From assembly GCA_030426545.1 (NCBI GenBank), contig JAUHYL010000042.1, forward strand, positions 1-34,863: 34,863 nucleotides of DNA. The letters run 5' to 3'. The notes below the pieces were generated by a model. It was given only the letters and a program-made list of their open reading frames with translations. It was not told the DNA's origin and ran no database searches. Position 1 is the stretch's first letter; every line of letters starts with the position of its first letter. Made by a program: the position numbers and the translations under genes. This stretch comes from Gammaproteobacteria bacterium. Its GTDB lineage: Bacteria; Pseudomonadota; Gammaproteobacteria; Pseudomonadales; Halieaceae. Of this stretch, positions 22,399-34,208 are shown one piece after another.

Positions 22399-23175
22399 CT
22401 AGTTGCGACCCGGTGCCGTGATAAAGCGGCGCGTCCATACCGATTGAAAAACAGGATCCAGCCAGCGGTAGAGGCGGCCGGAGATACAGATTGGCCTGCC
22501 CTTCTCTACCGCCCTGATGCCATCGGCCACCACCACATCGGCGTCATACCAGAACCATTTGGGCAGCGAGTTTTTCATGTCCTGCAATCCGGCGGTTTCG
22601 TGAAAGTCCGTATGGGTGAACCCGGGACAAAGGGCACAGACATTTACCCCGGTACCTTTCAGCGTAACCGCCAAAGACTCGGACAGCGCCACCACATAGG
22701 CCTTACTCGCCGCGTAGTTGCAGCCGTCAGCCCGCGGCAGACGCGCGGCAACTGACGCCACGTTGATGACACGACCAAAGCCCCGCTCGCGCATGGGGGG
22801 TACGAAGAGGTGGCAAAGATGGGCTACGGAGGACATCATCAGCTGAAAAAACGCATCCTGGGCACCCCAGTCACGATCCTCGAGCAAATCCGGCCCCGCA
22901 ATGCCTGCATTGTTCACCAGGTAGTCCACCGTGAGGCCCAGGGCCGCCACGGATTCAAACAGTGCCTGCGGCGCATCGGGGTCCGCCAAATCGGCGCTGA
23001 GCACATGGCAATCGATGCCGTGGGCGGTGCGCAATTCCACCGCCAGAGCCTCCAATTTTTCCCTGCGACGGGCCACCAGTATGAGGTTGTGCGCTCGCGC
23101 CGCGAGTTGCCGGGCAAACTCCGCACCCAGTCCGGCCGAGGCCCCGGTGATCAGGGCAGTCGGTTTTTGCGTCAT
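22399..23175 (-). CDS. Short-chain dehydrogenase/reductase (classical SDR)
   Basis: The ATG at 23175 gives a 258-residue protein starting right at the Rossmann strand; the longer frame to 23493 has unrelated leader sequence. Motifs are TGASAGLG (10-17), NNAG (88-91), Ser141 and the Tyr154/Lys158 pair of YAASK. The position after the second strand carries Arg residues (ARRREK), which suggests NADP rather than NAD. The C-terminal RLYRWLDPVFQSVW is hydrophobic and may touch a membrane or bind a lipid-like substrate. The substrate cannot be predicted. It is first in a likely two-gene unit with the TPR-sulfotransferase. Confidence 0.9.
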   Translation of the reverse strand: MTQKPTALITGASAGLGAEFARQLAARAHNLILVARRREKLEALAVELRTAHGIDCHVLSADLADPDAPQALFESVAALGLTVDYLVNNAGIAGPDLLEDRDWGAQDAFFQLMMSSVAHLCHLFVPPMRERGFGRVINVASVAARLPRADGCNYAASKAYVVALSESLAVTLKGTGVNVCALCPGFTHTDFHETAGLQDMKNSLPKWFWYDADVVVADGIRAVEKGRPICISGRLYRWLDPVFQSVWTRRFITAPGRN

Positions 23176-23440
23176 CACTTCACCAGTAGAACGTAGAAGG
23201 AGCGCTATTCTATCGAATCTGAAGACAGGAAATAGCACTTTCCACGCATGGCGCAGGTTTGCCCCTCCCCCGATTGGCGCTTTGGACCACTTGCAAAGGG
23301 ACCACACTTTTCGTCTACACTGTGCACCTGCCGGCAGAACAAGCGCAACCGCGCCGTATATCAACGCCACGACTGCTCCGGTCATCCAGGCGCCGACACC
23401 GCCCGGGCGCCGATGGGTCATCAAGACAGGGAGAGTATTC

Positions 23441-24667
23441 ATGAGAAGATCGATACTGCAGGGCCCGGCCATTATTCTGGCAACGGCCGCCACCCTCGCG
23501 CCCTCAGCCGTGGCACAGAACGCGGCCTTTCAGGACTTTTTCTTCAGCGCCTGCAACAGCCCGACTGGAAGCCTGGCAGCACGCTGTGCCGAGACCCCCA
23601 ACGGAGAGGGAGACCTGTCCAGCAACAGCGAAACGTCTCTCAATCCCAACCAGACATTAAGCAGCAACCAGACGCCACTGGGCAACGCCCGCAACCAGAT
23701 TTCCCGTACCGAGGAGCGCCTGGCGGGCGTCGGTGGCTCAGCAGATGGCACCGCCATCAACATCGGCCCCTTCAGCCTGCTGGTCAACGGCGGCTACGCC
23801 ACGATCGAGCAGGATGATACAGACAGCGAGCGCGGCTTCGACGGTGATGTCTACAGCATCGAACTGGGGGTAGACAAGCGCCTCAACGATACAACGGTGA
23901 TAGGCGGCTTCATCGGCTACGAGACCACCGAGTTCGACTACGATCGCGAGGCGGAGGGCGTGAATTTCACGCCGCAAAGTAACTCCGGTACTACCGAGTC
24001 GACCGCTTATTCACTGGTGCTGTTCGGGGCTTTTGATATTGCGGACAATCTCTACGCGGAAGGGAGCGCTGGGCTCAGCCGATCCGAGTACGAGTTTCAG
24101 CGCAATGTGGTCTTCCAGGAATCTACGCGCAGCGTCGAGCAGACCAATGTACAGGTGCAGGGCGATCCGGATGGGGACGCCTACTGGTTCAGCGGCAGCC
24201 TTGGGTATCGCCTGGACAGCGGCGCCTGGAGCCACACGCCCTATGCACGCGCCACCTATGTGAAATCTGACATCGACGCCTATACAGAGTCCGACCTCAA
24301 CAATTCGGGTCTGGCCATGCGCGTTGACAGCAACGAGCGCGAGTCACTCACCACGACATTTGGCGTGCGCAGCAGTTATGCAATGAGCACTGACTGGGGT
24401 GTGATCGTGCCCAGCCTGCACCTGGCCTACGAACACGAGTTTGACCAGGATGCGCAGGTCGCAACCTCAAGCTTTGACCTGGATACGGCGCAGAATCAGT
24501 ACACCATTGAAGGCGATGACCCGGATCGCGACTATTTCATTGCCGGCGCTGGTGTTTCGGCAATATTCGCCGAAGGTTGGATGCTGTTTCTCAACTATGA
24601 CGGACTGGTTGGTCACGATGAGCGCGAACGCCATCAATTGACCGCCGGATTACGCCGCGAATTTTAG
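23441..24667 (+). CDS. Autotransporter-type outer-membrane beta-barrel protein with a very short passenger
   Basis: I start at ATG 23441, which has GGGAGA upstream and opens a signal peptide cleaved near SAVAQ (residue 25). The frame is open far upstream, but that part overlaps the SDR gene on the other strand. The 408-residue product has a short mature N-terminus (about 26-105) with two cysteines (38 and 49) and a run rich in Asn, Ser and Thr. A barrel follows with alternating amphipathic strands (YSIELGVDKRLNDTTVIGGF and similar) ending in a terminal Phe (LTAGLRREF). The domain resembles the autotransporter (type V secretion) translocator. With so little passenger it may act as a porin-like or adhesin barrel. 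Its end lies 10 bases from that of the caspase gene. Confidence 0.85.
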   Translation: MRRSILQGPAIILATAATLAPSAVAQNAAFQDFFFSACNSPTGSLAARCAETPNGEGDLSSNSETSLNPNQTLSSNQTPLGNARNQISRTEERLAGVGGSADGTAINIGPFSLLVNGGYATIEQDDTDSERGFDGDVYSIELGVDKRLNDTTVIGGFIGYETTEFDYDREAEGVNFTPQSNSGTTESTAYSLVLFGAFDIADNLYAEGSAGLSRSEYEFQRNVVFQESTRSVEQTNVQVQGDPDGDAYWFSGSLGYRLDSGAWSHTPYARATYVKSDIDAYTESDLNNSGLAMRVDSNERESLTTTFGVRSSYAMSTDWGVIVPSLHLAYEHEFDQDAQVATSSFDLDTAQNQYTIEGDDPDRDYFIAGAGVSAIFAEGWMLFLNYDGLVGHDERERHQLTAGLRREF

Positions 24668-24677
24668 CGCGCAAGGT

Positions 24678-26993
24678 CTACTGCCGGGCGGGCACGATAA
24701 AGAAGTCGCCCCCCTCATGCCCGGCGTATTGCAGCGGTGCGTACTCCGGCACCTGTTCATAGCGCATCTGCGAGGCGGCCAGAGCGACTCGCGCGGATAC
24801 TTCCTTGTACAGGTTCAGTCCGTCCATCAGGCCGCCATTGTGTTGCAGCACATCCAGGAAGGCGCGCGCAAACACTGAATGCTCGCCGCCGCCCTCATCC
24901 AGGGTGGGCGCCAGTCCGCCCGATGTCAGTACGGTACGCGATCTTTTCTTGACCATCGATTTGAGCCAGTTCAACCGCTCTTGCGCTGTGAGCGCGCCAT
25001 CCAGTTGAGACAGGGCGGAGCGCGTGAGGGAGCCTGAATAGCAGGAGTCCGCTACCACCATCAAGCTACGCGCGTTAATGATATTGAGCATGTCAGTCAC
25101 CGCGACATTGGATATCCAGTTGGCGGAATTGTCCGCTTCCGCATCGACCGGCAGCCAGTGGCCGCGCATGTTTACCCGGTCGAGCTCACCGTGACCCGCA
25201 TAATAAATGAGCAGGTTGTCGTCGCTGGTCAGCGACTCGCGCATCCCGTTCAGGGCCGACAGGATGTCGTATCGACTTGCGTTCAGCAGCCGGGTGACCT
25301 TGAAACCGTACTTCTCTCCCAGCAAGTCCGCCACCGCATTGGCATCGTTGACCGCCGTGCGCAGTCTGGGCAGCTTTTCATAGTCATTTATTCCGATTAC
25401 CAGCGCGTGATAGTTGCCGAATTCCAGCGCGGGTAGTGCCGTGGCCGACTCGTCGCCGGTGTCGATCGCCTGCAGCGCGGCCAACTCCTCGGAGCGCAGC
25501 ACGAATTCTCGCGTCTCTCGCTTACCCTGGTTATCGATGGCCACAATAGAAACCGGTACTTCCGCGCGATCAAGGGGCACGACCGCGCGGAAGATACCCT
25601 GGGGATTGGCGGCAAGCGGCTCGTCATTGACGGTGAGAGAGAGCAGGCCCGCCGGCGCCAACAGCCGCGCGATGATCTGCCGGGATGATTGTTGTCCGCG
25701 CACCTTGACCACCGGCGTGGTCGCTCGCGTCTGCGGCAGGAGTGGGTCGATCATGGTAATGGAGGGCCCTGCAACCGCCTGCGTCTTGATCGCCTCTTCG
25801 TAGGCTTGCAGCGCGCTCAGCTCACTCTCAATCTGCTCCGTGCGACCCTGCAGCTTGTCTCGCTCACCCTGCAACTGCGCAATGATGGCTTCCTGCTGCT
25901 GGCTGCGCTGCTCGCTTTGTTCATACAGTTGTTGCAGTCGGTCGAGTTCGGCGCGTTCATTACTCCCACTCTGTCGCGCCTTATCCAGCGCTGCCTGCGC
26001 AGCGGCAAGCTCAGCACGGTATTTTTCGCGACTGAGGCGCGCCTCTTCCAGCGCGGATTCTGCCTGCAGCAACTGCTGCGCAGACGCGCCCGTTTCCCGT
26101 TGCGCGAGCAGCACCTGTGACTCCCGCTCAGCCAGTTCGGCTTCCAGCGCCTTCAGTCGCACCTCCTGCTGCTGTAGTTCGGCCAGCGCTTTGCTGCGCC
26201 CGTTCTCCGCCTCCTGCGCGGCGGCACCGTTCCTCGCGCCCGCCTCGAGCTGATTCTCGAGCTGCTGCAGACTTTGCTGCGACTCCTGCAGCGCGCGCTC
26301 AGCGGCAACCAGGTCCGCGCGCAACGCCTGCGCTTCCGCGCGAGCGCGTTCCAACGCCTCGTGGGCCCGCTCCTGCGAGTGCAACTCACTGCCCTGGGCA
26401 ACGGGGGGCGCGACGAGACTACCGGGGTCCAGCACCAGGTCATCCTCAAGTCCCGACGCCTTGCGATAGAACGATAACGCCAGCTGAGGGTTCTGCGGCA
26501 CGCCCAGGCCCTTCTCATACAGTTGCGCGAGGTTGATATAGGCGCTGGAACTGCCCGCTGCTGCCGCGGCTTCAAACCAGTGCGCCGCGGCGCGGTAATC
26601 CGGTGCCAGGCCGATTCCCTTCTGGTAAATCTCGCCAACGTTTACCATCGCTGCCACATCGCCCGCCTGCGCGGCGGGCAACCATACCAGCAGGGCAGAA
26701 GCCTGGTTCGCCTGATCTGCGAGGACATACTCGCCGCCGCGCAGGGCGCACTCCGCGGCAGTCGTTTTCAGGGGACGACGCGCCGAGAGATAGGTGCGAT
26801 TGTTGCCCAGCTGCCGGATCTGGCCAGGGAGCAGACAGTCAACCACCGCCAGGTCTTTGCTTGAGGCTGCCGCGGCCATTATCCGGGGTGTGCTGATCAC
26901 GCAGAGAATGAAGATCGCCGCCAGAGCGGCAGGACAGCGCCACCGGCTGCGCCAGTCAGGAAAACAAACCCCCTCGAGCGTTGGCTTTTTCAT
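24678..26993 (-). CDS. Secreted caspase-like (C14) protein with Sel1 repeats and coiled coil
   Basis: The 771-residue protein has a long N-terminal signal sequence or anchor (hydrophobic 20-40). Two Sel1-type repeats lie at about 113-180 (AMVNVGEIYQKGIGLAPDY, AYINLAQLYEKGLGVPQNP). A long Gln/Glu/Ala-rich coiled coil covers about 205-405 and a beta-rich domain about 408-500. The caspase/metacaspase domain runs from about 528 and opens with ALVIGINDYEKLPRLRTAV. The catalytic dyad is present: His601 in YYAGHGE and Cys651 in VADSCYSGS. Being exported, it is unlikely to be a cytoplasmic death effector. It is divergent from the CsgG-like cluster, and I infer it may process or police envelope components of that system. 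Substrate unknown. The start lacks a strong ribosome site. Confidence 0.9.
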   Translation of the reverse strand: MKKPTLEGVCFPDWRSRWRCPAALAAIFILCVISTPRIMAAAASSKDLAVVDCLLPGQIRQLGNNRTYLSARRPLKTTAAECALRGGEYVLADQANQASALLVWLPAAQAGDVAAMVNVGEIYQKGIGLAPDYRAAAHWFEAAAAAGSSSAYINLAQLYEKGLGVPQNPQLALSFYRKASGLEDDLVLDPGSLVAPPVAQGSELHSQERAHEALERARAEAQALRADLVAAERALQESQQSLQQLENQLEAGARNGAAAQEAENGRSKALAELQQQEVRLKALEAELAERESQVLLAQRETGASAQQLLQAESALEEARLSREKYRAELAAAQAALDKARQSGSNERAELDRLQQLYEQSEQRSQQQEAIIAQLQGERDKLQGRTEQIESELSALQAYEEAIKTQAVAGPSITMIDPLLPQTRATTPVVKVRGQQSSRQIIARLLAPAGLLSLTVNDEPLAANPQGIFRAVVPLDRAEVPVSIVAIDNQGKRETREFVLRSEELAALQAIDTGDESATALPALEFGNYHALVIGINDYEKLPRLRTAVNDANAVADLLGEKYGFKVTRLLNASRYDILSALNGMRESLTSDDNLLIYYAGHGELDRVNMRGHWLPVDAEADNSANWISNVAVTDMLNIINARSLMVVADSCYSGSLTRSALSQLDGALTAQERLNWLKSMVKKRSRTVLTSGGLAPTLDEGGGEHSVFARAFLDVLQHNGGLMDGLNLYKEVSARVALAASQMRYEQVPEYAPLQYAGHEGGDFFIVPARQ

Positions 26994-27314: not shown

Positions 27315-28265
27315 ATGCAAAAGTCCGGATTCATGGCAGTTTTGGGGGCAGTATCTCTGTGTACATTCATCAGTAGTGCGGCGATCGCACAAGACCGTGC
27401 TTCCGTGCGGGAAGGGGGGGTTAGGATCGGCGGATCAGTCGACCAGGATACGAGCGTGGTGGGCGGTGCAAGCGCGAACGCCGTGGGCGTGGGAGCCCTG
27501 TCCAAGACCAAGGTTGGTTCAGTAACGAGTACGGAAGTGTCCGGCAACCTGCAGCAAAGCACTAACGTCCTTGGCGCAGCGAATTCCACAACGCTGGGCG
27601 CCGGTGCGGCGGCGGCTACCCGGGTGGGCGACATCTCCGACTCGACCGTGGACGGCAATGTGGAACAGAACACCACGGTTGTGGGTGCCGCCACCAGTTT
27701 CACAGGGGGTGTGCTTTCGGGCGCAGCCACCAACGTCGGACGCGTCAACAACGCCGACGTGGATGGGAATCTGCAGCAGAACACCACCGTCCTGGGCGGC
27801 GTTTCCTCCACTGCGCTGATTGACGGCGCCGCCAGCCGCGCGTCCGTGGGAACGCTTGAAAACTCCGACATCGACGGCAACGTGCAGCAGGATACCTTCG
27901 TTGCCGGCGGCGTTACTGCGAATTCGGCGGCCGTGTTGGGCGTCTCGTCCTCGGAAGTCGGGGTGATCAAGAACAGTGATATCTCCGGGAATGTGCAGCA
28001 GGCAACAACCGTTTTAGGCGCCGTGAATTCCAACGCGGTGGGCGTGGGCACAGCAGCCGTCTCCGAGGTGGGAAAAATCAGTGATGTCGAAGCGTCTGGC
28101 AACGTGCAGCAGGATACCTTCGTCGGGGGCGCGGTGGTGACCTCTGCGGTGGGCGCCGCGTCTGTTGCCTGCACCAGCGTGGGCACCATCGGCCAGAGTG
28201 ATTGCGGGGTTGAGGGTGCCCTGGATACCGCGGATGACGTGCTGGATGACGTACTAACGGATTGA
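27315..28265 (+). CDS. Secreted protein of seven exact-length 37-residue repeats; candidate fibre subunit
   Basis: I do not recognise a named family. The 316-residue protein has GAGAGGAG before its ATG and a signal peptide (cleavage near IAQD, residue 26). After a 12-residue lead it is built of seven 37-residue repeats without a single insertion or deletion (residues 39-297), then an acidic tail ending in DDVLDDVLTD. The consensus is about [S/D]GN[V/L]QQxTxV, then x-G-[A/G], small residues, and VGxIxxS[D/T][V/I]. The alternation of polar and hydrophobic residues with Asn, Gln, Gly, Ser and Thr suggests a beta-solenoid or amyloid-like fold. It recalls curlin repeats in style but not in length. 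Two cysteines occur only in the last repeat, perhaps a disulfide cap. Position before a CsgG-like gene suggests it is the exported subunit. Confidence 0.9.
   Translation: MQKSGFMAVLGAVSLCTFISSAAIAQDRASVREGGVRIGGSVDQDTSVVGGASANAVGVGALSKTKVGSVTSTEVSGNLQQSTNVLGAANSTTLGAGAAAATRVGDISDSTVDGNVEQNTTVVGAATSFTGGVLSGAATNVGRVNNADVDGNLQQNTTVLGGVSSTALIDGAASRASVGTLENSDIDGNVQQDTFVAGGVTANSAAVLGVSSSEVGVIKNSDISGNVQQATTVLGAVNSNAVGVGTAAVSEVGKISDVEASGNVQQDTFVGGAVVTSAVGAASVACTSVGTIGQSDCGVEGALDTADDVLDDVLTD
27429..28205 (+). repeat. Seven in-frame tandem repeats of 111 bases
   Basis: Units begin at 27429, 27540, 27651, 27762, 27873, 27984 and 28095. DNA identity is lower than protein similarity in most pairs, so the array is old. 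Units five and seven share an identical 26-base stretch (27876-27901 and 28098-28123), which suggests a more recent duplication or gene conversion. Confidence 0.92.
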
Positions 28266-28279
28266 TACAACCCGTGCTG

Positions 28280-28314
28280 CAGGGGCCTGTAGATTCATTT
28301 TGAAACGGCCCCTG
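28280..28314 (+). terminator. Intercistronic hairpin after the repeat-protein gene (attenuator-like)
   Basis: CAGGGGCC (28280-28287) pairs with GGCCCCTG (28307-28314). The 19-base loop can itself form a small TTCA/TGAA stem. No T-run follows. It starts 15 bases after the stop of the repeat-protein gene and could either stop part of transcription or protect the upstream mRNA, giving more subunit than export machinery. Confidence 0.55.
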
Positions 28315-28351
28315 ACGGCACTGCCCCGAAACTTTGGCCAATGGTGACGGC

Positions 28352-28696
28352 ATGGTTATTACTCGGCTACCACTAGTTCTGCTGCTTATCGCGATGCTGG
28401 TCGGCGGGCCGGCCTTTGCCCGCGAATACAACAAGGTGCAGGGAATCGCGCCCGAACAACGCGTGAAGATTGACAAGACCATCGCCAAGTCCAAGAACAT
28501 CAAAAACCAGGTTGAAGCTGAAAGCGACAACCTGCTCAGCGATGGCGTCACAAATACCAACTGTGGCGAACTGTCCATCGGCAACGTCGAAGCACCGCAA
28601 AAGTATGGCTCCCGCGGTATTGAGGTTGACCGGGATATCATTATCACGGGCGACGTGATCAACCTGGCGACGGATTGCAAACGACGCCCGAATTAG
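28352..28696 (+). CDS. Small secreted two-cysteine protein of the CsgG-like cluster
   Basis: I start at ATG 28352 with GGTGA just upstream; a TTG six codons earlier (28334) has no ribosome site. The 114-residue product has a clear signal peptide (VLLLIAMLVGGPAFA, cleaved before REYNK). The mature part is a charged, helical-looking segment (KIDKTIAKSKNIKNQVEAE), then NCGELSIGNVEAP and a beta-like RDIIITGDVINLATDC. The two cysteines could form a disulfide. No family is recognised with confidence. Its place between a repeat subunit and a CsgG-like gene suggests a minor subunit, nucleator or export chaperone, in the way HfaA, CsgB or CsgE/F act in related systems; this is inference. Confidence 0.75.
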   Translation: MVITRLPLVLLLIAMLVGGPAFAREYNKVQGIAPEQRVKIDKTIAKSKNIKNQVEAESDNLLSDGVTNTNCGELSIGNVEAPQKYGSRGIEVDRDIIITGDVINLATDCKRRPN

Positions 28697-28780
28697 CCTG
28701 GTCGCGCGTGCAGTTTTTAGACGGGTTCGAAAGACTGTTGACCTGAATTTTCTGTTCCTATTCAAACGGGAGATGCCGTA

Positions 28781-30304
28781 TTGGCGATCCAGGCCAGATT
28801 CCTTTTCTTAGCACTCCTGCTCACGGCCGTTGCATCCTGCGCGGGTAAACAGTCCGCGGAACCGGTGATTGACGTGGTCCAGCCACAGGCTCGCCCGGTG
28901 CACAATCTCACCAGCTTTTCGCGCGCACTGGATTGCATGGATCAGCTGTTTATTGATCACGGTGTCAACAATGTGGTGATCACCAGCCAGGGCGTTCCGG
29001 ACGCCACCGGCGAAATTCGCAGCGGCACCAAAGAGATGATGATCTCGGCGATCTCGCGTATGTCGACACGCAGCGGTGCCTTCCGCTTTGTCGATTATGA
29101 CCAGCGCCAACTGGACATCAACGCGCTACACAACCTGGTGGGGTTTACAGCGGACTTCCTGATACCCAACTACTATATTCGCGGTGCGATCACCCAGTTC
29201 GATGAGCAGGTGGTTTCTGCGGGCAAGAGCGGTGGCGTTTCCTTCGGACAATTCGACGCCGGTGCCAGCGGCAATGTCACCACCTCCCTGGTGTCCATCG
29301 ATCTCAACATTGGCGACCTGATTACCCGGCAGATTTTATCGGGCACCTCGGCCAACAACACGATTGCCGTGAGCCGCGAACGCGACTCCAAGGACGCGAA
29401 CGGCTCTATCGACATGATCGAACTGGGTTTCAGCTTCAATATGAACATGAACCGCAGCGAGGGCATGCACCAGTCGGTGCGCACACTGCTGGAGTTGAGC
29501 CTGATTGAGTCGCTGGGCAAACTCACGCAGGTGCCTTACTGGCAGTGCCTTGGGTCGGGCAACACCAGCACCGCCATGCTCGCCCAGGCCCGAGGCTGGT
29601 ATGACAGCATGAGTGTTCGCGAGCAACGCGAATTCGTGCAGCAAGCCCTCTCCGGCAAGGGTCTGTACAGCGGCCCGGTCGACGGGGCCAGCGTCTCGCC
29701 GGAGTTGCGCGCAGCCATCGGCGCTTACCAGGCCGACAGAGCACTGCTGGCGGACGGGCAGATCAATTTCCAGCTGTACGCGGCACTGATTGACGACGAT
29801 CTGCAGTTGGGTCGACGGCCGGCACCACCACCGCGCTCGATCGCGCACCCGGAACAGGCGGGAAGCGACCCCGCGCTGACGCTGGCGCTGGGCCACAATC
29901 GAAGTGACGGCAGTCAATACGCTGTCGGGGAAGTGCTCTCAATCACGCTGCGCAGTAACCAGGACGCCTTCAGCTACTGCTACTACCAGGACAGCAGCAG
30001 GCGCGTGGTGCGACTGTTCCCGAATCGCTTTCAGCCCAATGCACTGCTGACGGCGGAAGCGCCCGTGACAGTGCCGGGGGTAAACGCCCGCTTTGAAATC
30101 GTGCTTGAACACCCCGGCGCAAAAGAGCAGATACTGTGCGTGGCCTCCCGGCAGGAGTTGGGGCTGGCGTTGCCTGAACGGCTAAAAGGTGAAGACCTCG
30201 TTGCGCTCCCCGTTGACTCACTGGACGCTGTCGAGTCGGCTTTCGCACAGTTGGATAAAACGCTCGTGTCACAGCGCGTGAATATTGATGTCAGCTTACC
30301 CTGA
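28781..30304 (+). CDS. CsgG-like outer-membrane lipoprotein fused to peptidoglycan-binding and DUF4384-like domains
   Basis: The start is TTG 28781, supported by GGGAG 8 bases upstream and by the lipoprotein signal with lipobox VASC (Cys20). Residues 40-257 resemble CsgG/HfaB pores: FRFVDYDQRQLDINAL, YYIRGAITQFDEQV, then SGGVSFGQFDAGASG, and VSIDLNIGDLITRQIL, parallel to the SGGV, transmembrane hairpin and TGEI regions of CsgG. Residues 265-337 look like a peptidoglycan-binding domain (GLYSGPVDGASVSPELRAAI). Residues 365-490 look like DUF4384, with SYCYYQDSSRRVVRLFPNRF. CsgG forms a nine-subunit channel for curlin export; family members here would be about 280 residues, so the C-terminal half is an extra fusion. 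It probably exports the repeat protein and holds the channel to the cell wall. Confidence 0.85.
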   Translation: MAIQARFLFLALLLTAVASCAGKQSAEPVIDVVQPQARPVHNLTSFSRALDCMDQLFIDHGVNNVVITSQGVPDATGEIRSGTKEMMISAISRMSTRSGAFRFVDYDQRQLDINALHNLVGFTADFLIPNYYIRGAITQFDEQVVSAGKSGGVSFGQFDAGASGNVTTSLVSIDLNIGDLITRQILSGTSANNTIAVSRERDSKDANGSIDMIELGFSFNMNMNRSEGMHQSVRTLLELSLIESLGKLTQVPYWQCLGSGNTSTAMLAQARGWYDSMSVREQREFVQQALSGKGLYSGPVDGASVSPELRAAIGAYQADRALLADGQINFQLYAALIDDDLQLGRRPAPPPRSIAHPEQAGSDPALTLALGHNRSDGSQYAVGEVLSITLRSNQDAFSYCYYQDSSRRVVRLFPNRFQPNALLTAEAPVTVPGVNARFEIVLEHPGAKEQILCVASRQELGLALPERLKGEDLVALPVDSLDAVESAFAQLDKTLVSQRVNIDVSLP

Positions 30305-30317
30305 CGGGGAGAACGAC

Positions 30318-30659
30318 ATGCTCAAGTTGTTTGCACAGCAAAAACGTTTATCGCCCGGCACCCCGGCAACCCTGACCTGTATCGCTCTGCTGGCTCTCGG
30401 GCCGCTGCCAGCGTCTGCAAACAGCGGCGCACCGGCGCCAAAATCGCCGCCGCTGCTGCGCCCCCAGGGTCCGCTGGAGCTGTCCTGCTGGCAGGACGGT
30501 GAGAAGATTATTCAGGAAACCGGATTGCGCGCGCTGTCCCTGAGCGGGGAGTTTAGCGAGAAAACGCTGTCCTTTACGCGGGACGAAGGCGCAGAACCGC
30601 GCTTGCTGGTGCTGAATATGGGGCGTTCCCTGTGCCTGGTAAAATCCAGTGAAAAGTAG
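30318..30659 (+). CDS. Small secreted protein of the CsgG-like cluster, unknown function
   Basis: The ATG at 30318 has GGGGAG 6 bases upstream and lies 13 bases after the CsgG-like gene, so the two are co-transcribed. The 113-residue product has an extended, positively charged signal peptide (about 1-35, ending PASANS) and a Pro-rich linker. A compact beta-rich domain follows with two cysteines (LELSCWQDGEKIIQE and MGRSLCLVKSSEK). Size and place recall the periplasmic accessory proteins CsgE and CsgF, but I see no sequence match to either. It could be a plug, chaperone or assembly factor. Confidence 0.72.
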   Translation: MLKLFAQQKRLSPGTPATLTCIALLALGPLPASANSGAPAPKSPPLLRPQGPLELSCWQDGEKIIQETGLRALSLSGEFSEKTLSFTRDEGAEPRLLVLNMGRSLCLVKSSEK

Positions 30660-30712
30660 TCCCCGCCCAGCCCCAACGTGAGCGCGAACCCAAACTGGAA
30701 AGGAAAGTCACA

Positions 30713-31339
30713 ATGAGAACCTGCAGCACCGGCAATGCAACCGCTCACGGCACCCTGGCCGCCCTGGCAACGACCGCCCTACTGTTGTGCGTGCCATCGC
30801 CCGGCGAGGCGGAAGACCTGTTCCTGATTCAGGAGGTCCCGGACCCTACTGCGCTGGGCGATTTGATGTACCCCGACGCCGACACCAGCACACAGCGTGA
30901 ACTCCGCGTGCGAGCCATCCGCTTCACCGATACCGAGCCTGAAAATCCGGCGTCCGCGGCACAGCCCGAAGCGGAGACGGCACCAGCGGCATCCACCGGC
31001 GCGGCCGTGGGGTTCAATATCCAGTTCGCGCTGAACTCGCCGCAGTTACTGCCGGAGGCGCTACCCTACCTCGATGCGGTAGGTGCAATGTTGATCCAGG
31101 AACGCACGGCGGATACGCGCTTGATGATCGCCGGCCATGCAGATGCGCTGGGCGACGCGGTGTATAACCAGCAACTGTCGGAAGCCCGTGCAATTTCAGT
31201 ATCCAGTTACCTGATGCAAAACTACGGCATCGGGGCCGACCGCCTGCTGACCAGGGGTTTTGGCGAAGAGAAACCGTTACCGGATACGGATCCCAATGAC
31301 GGCCTGAATCGGCGCGTGGAGTTTCACCCCCTCCCGTAA
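30713..31339 (+). CDS. OmpA-family peptidoglycan-binding protein
   Basis: The 208-residue protein has AAGGAAAG before its ATG and a signal peptide ending near GEAED. A variable N-terminal part (35-95) ends in an Ala/Glu/Pro-rich linker. The OmpA C-terminal domain covers about 98-208, with FNIQFALNSPQLLPEA, IAGHADALG, YNQQLSEARAISVSSYL and the final LNRRVEFHPLP. The Asp and Arg of these motifs bind diaminopimelate in peptidoglycan. No beta-barrel is present, so it is a periplasmic or lipid-free wall-binding protein. It lies 53 bases after the small secreted gene and gives the cluster a second wall anchor beside the domain in the CsgG-like protein. Confidence 0.88.
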   Translation: MRTCSTGNATAHGTLAALATTALLLCVPSPGEAEDLFLIQEVPDPTALGDLMYPDADTSTQRELRVRAIRFTDTEPENPASAAQPEAETAPAASTGAAVGFNIQFALNSPQLLPEALPYLDAVGAMLIQERTADTRLMIAGHADALGDAVYNQQLSEARAISVSSYLMQNYGIGADRLLTRGFGEEKPLPDTDPNDGLNRRVEFHPLP

Positions 31340-31521: not shown

Positions 31522-32739
31522 ATGCCACGTCAATTGCATCAAAACCGCCACCGCCAATCAGCCAGAGCGCCGCGCTACCTGACCGCTGCCGCTTGTTTTG
31601 TGGCGACGCTGCCCAGTCTCCCGGCGCTTGCCACCGACGAGGCCGCGGCCTTTCTGGAGGCGTTCGGCGAATGTCGCACCCTGAAAAACGAATTCTCCCG
31701 CCTGCGCTGCTACGACAGCTTGCAATCGGAGCGCGATGACGCCGAGATGGAACTGCGCGAGGAGGCCGTGGTTTCCAGGGAACGCGAAGAGGCGCTACAA
31801 CGCGAGCGACGCCTGGCGAGGCTGGAATTGCTGGCGCTCAATGAAGACCGCGGACGACTTAGCGCAGACGATCCGAATTATTTCGTCTATGCCTCACCGA
31901 TAGACGATAAACTGAACGACGACAATCACATCGAGTTTTACCTGTCCCTGAAGTACCCCCTGGTCGACAGCTGGTTCGACGAGGTGCAGGACCGCTATAA
32001 GGATGGCGAAACATTTGGCGCCCAGTTCCTCAACGGCATTACCCCGGACCGGTTCCTGCTGCACTACAACGGCCTTTTCGATTTCTACACCTTCGACAGT
32101 GACCGCTACGATTCTGCTCCCATCATTTCCCGCGCGCAAAATCCGGGCATGTCCTTTGAGTTCGACTTCTCCGGTGGGCGCAATGTACTGCGATTGGGTT
32201 GGTTCCACGAATCCAACGGACAACAACTGGAGGCAGACAACCTCACCCAGTTCGAATTCGACGAGCAGCGTAGAGGCCAGGATTTTGCGTTGGCCAAGGT
32301 AAGCCGCGGCTGGGACTACGGCCTCATTCGCTTTTCCAGCACAGACCTGTTCAACGAGGACCCGCTGGCCGAGAGCTGGTTCCGCTACCAGATCGAAACG
32401 CGTTTTTTCTGCAACTGCCAGGGCTTCGGGTTTATCGACGGTCGTGAAGACAATATCTGGTGGGACGAGAACGACGATTCCCGCATTACAGACTACGACG
32501 GCCTGCGCACCATGGTGCAGCAATCTTTCCCGTTCGAAGATTTCTCGCTGGATGCGCGCCTAGAACTGAAAACCGGCCTTGAGCACAGCTTCGGACAGTA
32601 CCTCAGCGGCCGTTTGAGCCTGGGCGCAAAGTGGGAGAACCTGCACCTGACGCTGTTCTATTTCAACGGCTACGGCCGCGACCCTTCAACCTACCATTTG
32701 CGCAGCGAATACATGGGTCTGGGATTGGTGCTTAAATAA
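31522..32739 (+). CDS. pldA: Outer-membrane phospholipase A (OMPLA family) with extended N-terminal region
   Basis: I start at ATG 31522 because GGAGG lies 8 bases before it and a signal sequence follows. The 405-residue protein is longer than E. coli PldA (289). Residues 40-110 form a charged helical region with CRTLKNEFSRLRCYD (Cys51, Cys63), a motif seen in several periplasmic proteins. The barrel follows from about 130. The active-site segment GWFHESNGQQ (227-236) matches the HxSNG of OMPLA, with His229 and Ser231. The catalytic Asn is not at the usual place: Gln243 stands 12 after the Ser, and Asn240 is nearest. The C-terminal YFNGYGRDPSTYHL fits the family. It hydrolyses phospholipids in the outer leaflet when the membrane is disturbed. 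Confidence 0.88.
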   Translation: MPRQLHQNRHRQSARAPRYLTAAACFVATLPSLPALATDEAAAFLEAFGECRTLKNEFSRLRCYDSLQSERDDAEMELREEAVVSREREEALQRERRLARLELLALNEDRGRLSADDPNYFVYASPIDDKLNDDNHIEFYLSLKYPLVDSWFDEVQDRYKDGETFGAQFLNGITPDRFLLHYNGLFDFYTFDSDRYDSAPIISRAQNPGMSFEFDFSGGRNVLRLGWFHESNGQQLEADNLTQFEFDEQRRGQDFALAKVSRGWDYGLIRFSSTDLFNEDPLAESWFRYQIETRFFCNCQGFGFIDGREDNIWWDENDDSRITDYDGLRTMVQQSFPFEDFSLDARLELKTGLEHSFGQYLSGRLSLGAKWENLHLTLFYFNGYGRDPSTYHLRSEYMGLGLVLK

Positions 32740-32819: not shown

Positions 32820-34208
32820 TCAGCGCTTTACCTGTAGCTCGAAGCAAGGCACATAGTCGGCGGGGTCTATTTTCATACGGCCATCGGCAACGAACTGCTC
32901 CAGCAAAGCGCCCATGCGGTTCATCAGCGCCTGCTCGCCCTGCAGCAGGAACGGGCCGCGCTCGGCGATTGCGCGTATACCAAAGTCCTTCACATTGCCG
33001 GCCACCAGTCCGGAAAACGCACGTCGCAGCGCGGCTGCAAGTTCGTGCGGTTGCTGGTCGCTGCTCAGATCCAGCTTGGCCATGGTCTCATGTGTCACAT
33101 GAAAGGGCTGCTGCAGTTCGTCGTCCACCTGCAAGCCCCAGTTGAAGCTGAACGATTCCTGCTGCTCAATGCGCCGCTTGCGCACGCCCTTGATCGCACG
33201 TTTCAGCTTGCGCGCCACACCGGCAGGGTCGCCGACAACGATCTCGTAGTGTTCACGCACCTGGTCGCCCAGCGTAGAACAGAGAAACTCGTCCAACTGG
33301 TGGAAGTAAGACGCACTGGATTCCGGCGCGGCCATAATGACAGGCAGGGGGATATCGGCGTTAGCCGGATGCATCTTCAGGCAGAGAAGATAGAGAATTT
33401 CCTCGGCGGTTCCAACGCCCCCGGGGAACACCACGATGCCATGGGCGAGCCGCACAAACGCCTCCAGCCGTTTCTCGATGTCCGGCATGATAACCAGCTC
33501 GTTTACGATGGGGTTGGGCGACTCGGCGGTGATAATCCCGGGCTCAGATATGCCGATATAGCGGCGCTCGGTGTTCAACTGCTTGGCATGGCCAATTGCC
33601 GCGCCCTTCATGGGGCCTTTCATCGCGCCGGGGCCGCAACCGGTGGCGATATCGAAATCTCGCAGGCCGAGCTCATAACCCACCTGTTTGGTGAAGTCGT
33701 ACTCTGCGCGGGAAATGGAATGGCCACCCCAACACACGACCAGTCGTGGCTTACCATCTGATTTCACGGCGTCGGCATTGCGGAGGATTCTGAAAACCGC
33801 ATCGCTGATTCCTTCGCGGGACTCCAGGTCAAAGCGCAGCTGCTGCACCAGCTTGTGGTGGATGTAAACGATGTCCCGTAGCGCCGCAAAAAGGTGTGCT
33901 CGAATGCCGGTGATCATGCGCCCGTCGACAAAGGCCTGGCTGGGCGCGTTTTCTATCTCCAGCTTCAGTCCCCGATACTCGGGCACGACGCGAATCTCAA
34001 AATCCTCATAACGAGAGAAGAGCTCGCTGGCATCGTCCGTATCATCGCCGGTGTTGAGCACCGCCAGGGCGCAGCGCCTGAACAGCTTGTGAATCTCCTG
34101 GTCTGTGGTTGCGAGACTGGTCATCTCACGCTGTGACAACAAATCCAGCGATTGCAGCGGGCGAATTACCGCGTAAGGCATTTTTTGATTTATTTTCTCG
34201 GCAGTCAC
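32820..34208 (-). CDS. ppnN: Pyrimidine/purine nucleotide 5'-monophosphate nucleosidase
   Basis: The 462-residue protein starts at GTG 34208, with GGAG 7 bases upstream. It aligns along its whole length with E. coli PpnN (YgdH): SLDLLSQREM near the start, RYEDFEIRVVPEYRGLKLE, and the Rossmann-like LOG core with GCGPGAMKGPMKGAA and the FPGGVGTAEEILYLL motif. PpnN splits nucleoside monophosphates into base and ribose 5-phosphate and is stimulated by (p)ppGpp. A minus-strand TATACT lies at 34264-34259 and could be its -10. It converges with pldA. Confidence 0.95.
   Translation of the reverse strand: MTAEKINQKMPYAVIRPLQSLDLLSQREMTSLATTDQEIHKLFRRCALAVLNTGDDTDDASELFSRYEDFEIRVVPEYRGLKLEIENAPSQAFVDGRMITGIRAHLFAALRDIVYIHHKLVQQLRFDLESREGISDAVFRILRNADAVKSDGKPRLVVCWGGHSISRAEYDFTKQVGYELGLRDFDIATGCGPGAMKGPMKGAAIGHAKQLNTERRYIGISEPGIITAESPNPIVNELVIMPDIEKRLEAFVRLAHGIVVFPGGVGTAEEILYLLCLKMHPANADIPLPVIMAAPESSASYFHQLDEFLCSTLGDQVREHYEIVVGDPAGVARKLKRAIKGVRKRRIEQQESFSFNWGLQVDDELQQPFHVTHETMAKLDLSSDQQPHELAAALRRAFSGLVAGNVKDFGIRAIAERGPFLLQGEQALMNRMGALLEQFVADGRMKIDPADYVPCFELQVKR

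Follow-up and report, generated by a model that had tools for sequence, protein, structure and literature searches.

On the plus strand of a 34,863-nucleotide contig from a gammaproteobacterium of the Halieaceae (GenBank assembly GCA_030426545.1, contig JAUHYL010000042.1; the whole stretch is called the window here), a gene cluster at positions 27315-31339 appears to encode a separate machinery for the assembly of surface structures, one not described so far. It probably encodes a type VIII-like system, anchored to peptidoglycan, that exports a beta-solenoid surface protein, belongs to its own branch of the CsgG/HfaB superfamily and was acquired horizontally by this genome. The open reading frame (ORF) list and Pfam matches show a real gene locus of five ORFs, g1 to g5, encoding a repeat protein, a small secreted protein, a CsgG-like lipoprotein, another small secreted protein and an OmpA-domain protein, in the same-strand arrangement and at the coordinates that an initial annotation of the window had given. 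That annotation proposed a fibre system distinct from curli and from the Hfa holdfast anchor. Our analysis supports a separate CsgG-type system and adds three elements that the annotation had missed: a caspase-like neighbour (g0), a wall-binding domain in g3 and a shortened constriction segment.

g3 is a lipoprotein with a predicted CsgG fold

To place g3, we used a family profile (alignment A5, 74 rows, comprising 70 of the 78 rows of a reference list, P0003 and three distant rows). Rows left out of the list were repeats (L123, L132 and L143, which repeat L010, L011 and L012) or were partial or split (L013, L055, L069, L095 and L116). In hhalign comparisons the profile aligned with HfaB at 99.0% (E 5.9e-18) and with CsgG at 97.5% (E 8.5e-12); for reference, HfaB and CsgG profiles align with each other at 99.7%, and an unrelated control, g3 versus HfaD, gave 0.1%. 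A lipoprotein signal is visible by eye in the window (VASC), and a lipobox-like pattern occurs in 55 of the 74 family rows. Pfam identifies a PG_binding_1 domain at residues 281-336 of g3 and a DUF4384 domain at residues 379-458, present in 56 and 60 of the 74 members, respectively.

An AlphaFold2 model of g3 (predicted local distance difference test, pLDDT, 83.9; predicted template modelling score, pTM, 0.65) contains long paired strands (131-155/158-179 and 191-208/217-225); after these come helices where the wall-binding domain lies, and the C-terminal part is rich in beta structure. The top 25 Foldseek matches of this model in the Protein Data Bank were all CsgG (best E 2.6e-10, probability 1.00). 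On the target, the first twelve have TM-scores of 0.51-0.72 and the pre-pore chains of 4uv2 reach 0.37-0.43; root-mean-square deviations are 4.3-12.3 Å. The fold of g3 therefore agrees with that of CsgG, although the arrangement does not superpose closely. Profile comparison and structure prediction identify g3 as a lipoprotein of the CsgG/HfaB superfamily with a predicted CsgG fold, and the alignment with CsgG and HfaB on which the initial annotation had let its proposal depend was found with both profiles and also by fold.

PelC and LpoB use a CsgG-like fold without a pore. By analogy, g3 could be a periplasmic, peptidoglycan-bound ring or scaffold of CsgG-like fold that lacks a pore, with the repeat proteins staying in the envelope or leaving it by another route. 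The frequency of the wall-binding domain in the family is consistent with this, as are matches to PelC (5t0z, E 4.6e-3) and FlgT (3w1e, E 2.8e-3) far down the Foldseek list and a match of one g3 member to Pfam LpoB at E 0.0046. We nevertheless consider such a scaffold unlikely: the g3 model has two long strand pairs, membrane-bound conformations of CsgG rank first among its structural matches, and conserved secreted repeat proteins adjoin g3.

g3 forms its own branch and has a short constriction segment

A maximum-likelihood (ML) tree of 86 rows split the 74 g3-family rows from seven HfaB and five CsgG rows with 100/99 support, at a point where the program warns of long branches meeting; three of the g3 rows (L056-L058) form a long branch of their own. 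Caulobacter vibrioides T5M6 has a g3 locus (L119) and, elsewhere in its genome, a canonical HfaB (424.7 bits, the sole match there at E up to 0.001), and therefore the g3 locus and the Hfa system coexist. The separateness from curli and Hfa claimed by the initial annotation is borne out by the distinct clade, by this genome and by the lack of curlin, HfaA or HfaD matches in g1 and g2.

Excerpts of PMC7304575 give Tyr66, Asn70 and Phe71 as the CsgG eyelet residues. At the corresponding site, the D-x-T-G...M segment is 13 residues long in the window g3 and in 61 of 74 family rows, 15-16 in 10 and 20 in three distant rows. Among the reference rows covered by the regular expression used to measure it, the segment spans 25 residues in CsgG (6 of 13 rows matched) and 21-22 in HfaB (10 of 14). 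We found no curli constriction loop with Tyr66, Asn70 and Phe71 in g3. Given 13 versus 25 residues, we infer that g3 lacks an eyelet of the CsgG type and that its channel, if it forms one, would be wider.

The locus is distinct from curli and from the HfaABD anchor

Like curli (type VIII; CsgA, B, E, F, G), the locus combines a CsgG fold with a secreted tandem-repeat protein. Unlike curli, its repeat is exactly 37 residues long and has no curlin match, in line with the different repeat length noted by the initial annotation, and its constriction segment is shorter. That annotation also saw neither CsgE nor CsgF, and Pfam searches of the whole genome found no match to curlin repeats (PF07012), CsgF (PF10614) or CsgE (PF10627), each of which was detected in an E. 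coli control; this rules out curli proper. The genome's only Pfam CsgG match (G000:C91:11535-12065; L001, L014) falls on a different lipoprotein that sits in a small-lipoprotein cluster, and no repeat proteins lie nearby.

The resemblance to the HfaABD holdfast anchor lies in an HfaB-type outer-membrane lipoprotein beside small and repeat-bearing secreted proteins. HfaB of Caulobacter crescentus is required for surface placement of HfaA and HfaD (excerpts of PMC6707917), and g3 might by analogy do the same job for its neighbours. The locus could then be a diverged HfaABD system in other lineages (g2 as HfaA, g3 as HfaB, g1 as HfaD) that anchors a polysaccharide. Besides the profile match of g3 to HfaB, 53 of the 74 members match NCBIfam HfaB at E up to 0.01 (11 match Pfam CsgG at this threshold), g2 lies before g3 as hfaA lies before hfaB, and a weak alignment of g2 with HfaA falls on an IGN...VIV...IN segment. 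These similarities do not extend to the partners: at E up to 10, g2 has no NCBIfam HfaA match and g1 no HfaD match, and hhalign gave 7.2% for g2 versus HfaA and 0.3% for g1 versus HfaD, ruling out HfaABD proper. Moreover, g3 is a separate clade, carries additional wall-binding and DUF4384 domains and has a shortened constriction segment, g1 is upstream rather than downstream, the window locus has OmpA and caspase neighbours, and both systems occur in C. vibrioides T5M6. A diverged Hfa anchor is thus improbable. A survey of curli diversity (PMC3521004) mentions neither HfaB nor holdfast in its text, and in our searches of open-licence PubMed Central papers we recognised no description of the g3 family.

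The secreted proteins g1 and g2

Following a signal peptide (by eye), g1 consists of seven units of exactly 37 residues, constant in length, at residues 40-298. BLOSUM62 autocorrelation reached 1.85, 1.85 and 1.55 at lags of 37, 74 and 111, compared to 0.38 for the best of 500 shuffles. The mature protein is acidic (pI 4.05), rich in V, G, A, S and T and has three aromatic residues; its C-terminal cap, CTSVGTIGQSDC, holds two cysteines. Of 123 g1-type ORFs, 51 have a similar C...[IVL]G...C pattern within their final 35 residues. The g1 repeat alignment (A9) is loose. All six g1 relatives that we examined have a period of 35, 36 or 37 residues, three of them with weaker peaks at multiples of 18 as well. 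No Pfam or NCBIfam family matched g1 up to E 10.

The small protein g2, whose family alignment (A8) holds 49 sequences, ends in CGELSIGN...GDVINLATDC; of its two possible starts, the ATG appears likelier by eye than the TTG. A g1 hidden Markov model (HMM) matched the window g2 at E 9e-4, but when profiles were compared the alignment was confined to the signal peptides, and for this reason we do not claim that g2 is a single g1 repeat unit. We looked for perfect stems in 40 g1-g2 gaps (the window included; three rows repeat others): 15 have one of 8 or more pairs, 10 have a shorter stem and the remaining 15 have none. Where present, the stem-loop would fit a subunit made in excess over its machinery.

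Table 1. Features of the g0-g5 locus in the window
Feature	Position	Strand	Description	Proposed role
g0	24678-26993	minus	Sel1 / coiled-coil / caspase-like (Peptidase_C14) protein, 771 aa, secreted by eye	associated partner
g1	27315-28265	plus	316 aa, secreted repeat protein, seven 37-aa units and two-cysteine C-terminal cap	candidate exported subunit
Stem-loop g1/g2	28274-28321	plus	-29.1 kcal/mol, z -4.53 versus 200 shuffles	
g2	28352-28696 (alternative TTG start 28334)	plus	small secreted protein, C-terminal CGxxxIGN...GDVIN...C motif	candidate cap, nucleator or base
g3	28781-30304	plus	507 aa, CsgG/HfaB-superfamily lipoprotein with PG_binding_1 and DUF4384	candidate wall-anchored pore
g4	30318-30659	plus	113 aa, small secreted protein, two cysteines after signal peptide	
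g5	30713-31339	plus	208 aa, secreted OmpA-domain protein, Pfam OmpA E 1.3e-16	candidate peptidoglycan tether

The gene set recurs across Proteobacteria

A contig scan with the g3 domain yielded 91 relatives, from which 80 loci were kept on the basis of g3 alone. Alpha-, Beta- and Gammaproteobacteria are all represented, and L121 comes from a Desulfuromonadales bin. The bin of L094 carries a Deltaproteobacteria label, and its g3 sits among betaproteobacterial rows. Carriers include the cultured genera Skermanella, Magnetospirillum, Rhodocyclus, Propionivibrio and Acidovorax as well as Candidatus Accumulibacter. Among the cultured strains with the locus are Magnetospirillum fulvum DSM 13234, Rhodocyclus purpureus DSM 168 and Propionivibrio dicarboxylicus DSM 5885. 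Counted with HMMs that were trained on these same loci, 65 of the 80 have a g1-type gene, 66 g2 and 45 an OmpA-type gene; g4 relatives occur in 18. Recurrence of the gene order in other genomes, the second point on which the initial annotation had made its proposal depend, was thereby found for the gene set. Where more than 1.5 kb of upstream sequence is available (71 loci), g2 directly precedes g3 on the same strand in 40 and both g1 and g2 do so in 35; in many Rhodocyclaceae-type loci, g1, g2 and OmpA form a separate block nearby.

The g2 profile matched three of 369 genomes of the class (G000, G210 and G325); these matches arise by construction, their sequences being in A8, and the informative part is that none of the other 366 genomes matched. 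The g3 domain matched eight genomes, with window-type g3 in the same three as g2. In four of the other five, g3 is of the distant type and is surrounded by different small secreted proteins, and G151 has a weak match with other neighbours.

A caspase-like gene belongs to the g3 neighbourhood

The gene upstream of the cluster, g0, matches Pfam Peptidase_C14 at E 6.7e-24 (85.3 bits versus a cut-off of 21.4) and Sel1 at E 3.2e-17. It lies 322 bp from g1 and is the sole C14 match in the 4.35 Mb genome; excerpts of a 2012 survey give 0.03 metacaspases per 1000 proteins in Gammaproteobacteria (PMC3501461). With a C14 profile, matches are present in 23 of the 80 loci and in 20 of the 47 that have more than 5.5 kb on both flanks. 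By Pfam, the 36 genomes that hold 37 of these loci contain 110 C14 matches in ~165 Mb. Seventeen of the 37 loci have one, whereas the C14 rates of the individual genomes predict ~0.4 (Poisson ~1e-22; the expectation is 0.38 for 36 windows, one per genome, and ~0.39 given that G844 holds two loci). The 37 loci were picked after locus C14 counts were known, and 17 of 37 is above the overall 23 of 80 and near the well-flanked 20 of 47. Seven of the 36 genomes have exactly one C14 match, which in five (G851, G857, G836, G864 and G871) is at the g3 locus. These results show that the caspase-like gene is associated with g3. In 29 aligned C14 domains the catalytic His is kept in all and the Cys in 27, the other two ORFs being cut short; the window g0 keeps both. 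Its nearest relatives are at L058 (47% over 429 aa) and L117 (40% over 615 aa).

This strong linkage and the retained catalytic residues would also suit a stress or cell-death module centred on the caspase, with the envelope proteins as sensor or target. Of the 47 well-flanked loci, by contrast, 40 have g1, 40 have g2 and 20 have the caspase; the caspase is therefore accessory rather than core, and we regard such a module as very unlikely. Metacaspase operons surveyed in 2012 share with this locus an OmpA gene and a link to the surface (OmpA in 14 operons; 16 operons with surface functions; excerpts of PMC3501461). Those excerpts differ in naming no CsgG/HfaB-type gene or repeat protein, and the word curli is absent from the text of that survey.

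Beside g0, at 22931-24667 of the window, is an autotransporter-like barrel (by eye), with similar ones in L058 and L011. Relatives of g0 also adjoin the distant g3 type of L057 and L058.

The window's copy was likely acquired horizontally

In the ML tree the window g3 groups with L070 and L071, the latter from Geminicoccaceae (Alphaproteobacteria), at 99/91, and its best identity (65%) is to a contig from an alphaproteobacterial bin (L069). Searches found g3 in none of 17 other genomes of the genus and in one of 42 of the family. Because of this grouping and the genus search, we favour horizontal acquisition as the likeliest origin. As g3 looks alphaproteobacterial, we also considered a mis-binned contig. 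This is countered by the flanking gene 32820-34208, which has matches of 53-68% in 12 of the 17 same-genus genomes (two more are weak and three have none); in the three genomes examined (G012, G007 and G016), no other window gene lies beside its relative. The contig is therefore consistent with the genus, and the locus is an accessory one. Between g5 and this gene is a phospholipase-A1-like barrel gene (31522-32739; 25.1 bits versus a Pfam cut-off of 27), which was dropped as a candidate cluster member when phmmer found only itself in the loci.

A model for wall-anchored export

Taken together, these features suggest how a peptidoglycan-anchored exporter might work. The outer-membrane lipoprotein g3 would oligomerise into a barrel held to peptidoglycan by its own binding domain, with the OmpA protein g5 helping. 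Sec-secreted g1, and probably g2, would be exported through g3 to the surface, where the 37-residue repeats of g1 may stack as a beta-solenoid into a fibre or coat, with g2 as a possible cap, nucleator or base. The stem-loop after g1 could keep the subunit in excess over the machinery, and the secreted caspase-like g0 may act on export or maturation of the exported proteins.

Several observations weigh against this model. As a single sequence, g3 falls short of curated family scores (NCBIfam HfaB, E 8.2e-6, 25.2 bits versus a cut-off of 300; Pfam CsgG, 14.1 bits versus 20.8), and residues 206-225 of its model, which include part of the second strand pair, have pLDDT below 50. Ten of the 80 loci, some on short contigs, are without g1 and g2, and the caspase is absent from 27 of the 47 well-flanked loci. 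Passage of g1 across the outer membrane and its assembly into fibres are, like the role of the caspase, something that we infer.

A further possibility, which we put forward tentatively, is that this third CsgG-type branch is a self-wall-anchored pore without the narrow eyelet that restricts CsgG to unfolded chains, so that larger or partly folded beta-solenoid subunits could pass, matured or proofread by a dedicated periplasmic caspase-like protease. If so, a bacterial caspase homologue would have a defined job in building surface structures. Alongside curli and the Hfa anchor, the locus would represent a third lineage of CsgG-type export, in carriers that include genera where surface-matrix makers have practical interest. 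The wall-binding fusion and short constriction segment would allow direct tests of cargo gating in CsgG-type channels, and the association with g0 gives bacterial caspase homologues, in whose operons OmpA had already been seen in 2012 (excerpts of PMC3501461), a concrete context.

Variant loci

The distant g3 type of L056-L059 has small repeat proteins of its own and, by eye, a tail resembling the wall-binding and DUF4384 domains. Eighteen loci within L084-L108, mostly Rhodocyclaceae-type (for example L091:5680-6570 and L105:9895-10794), encode a secreted protein of ~300 residues with an HExxH-like motif (by eye; HELAHGEYYTN, HEISHAEYYTN), mostly between g3 and the g1-g2-OmpA block; it may be a second protease. 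Giant proteins of 703-1010 residues with g1-like repeats at the C terminus directly follow g3 in six places (L121:2894-5920, L124:8034-10901, L125:8179-11211, L139:6273-8828, L141:8349-10460 and L145:7995-10160), and g3 is shorter in L121, L124, L125 and L139. On the minus strand of L012 (1569-7333), a filamentous-haemagglutinin-like protein and an apparent two-partner secretion pore (by eye) come after g3. The g3 of G325 is split over two overlapping frames (L055:6349-7936), perhaps by a frameshift or assembly error. L132 (CAMAPQ010000009.1), titled as a Klebsiella pneumoniae metagenome-assembled genome, has the locus gene content of G091, and its label looks wrong; G091 itself is placed in the order of the window's genome but in another family.

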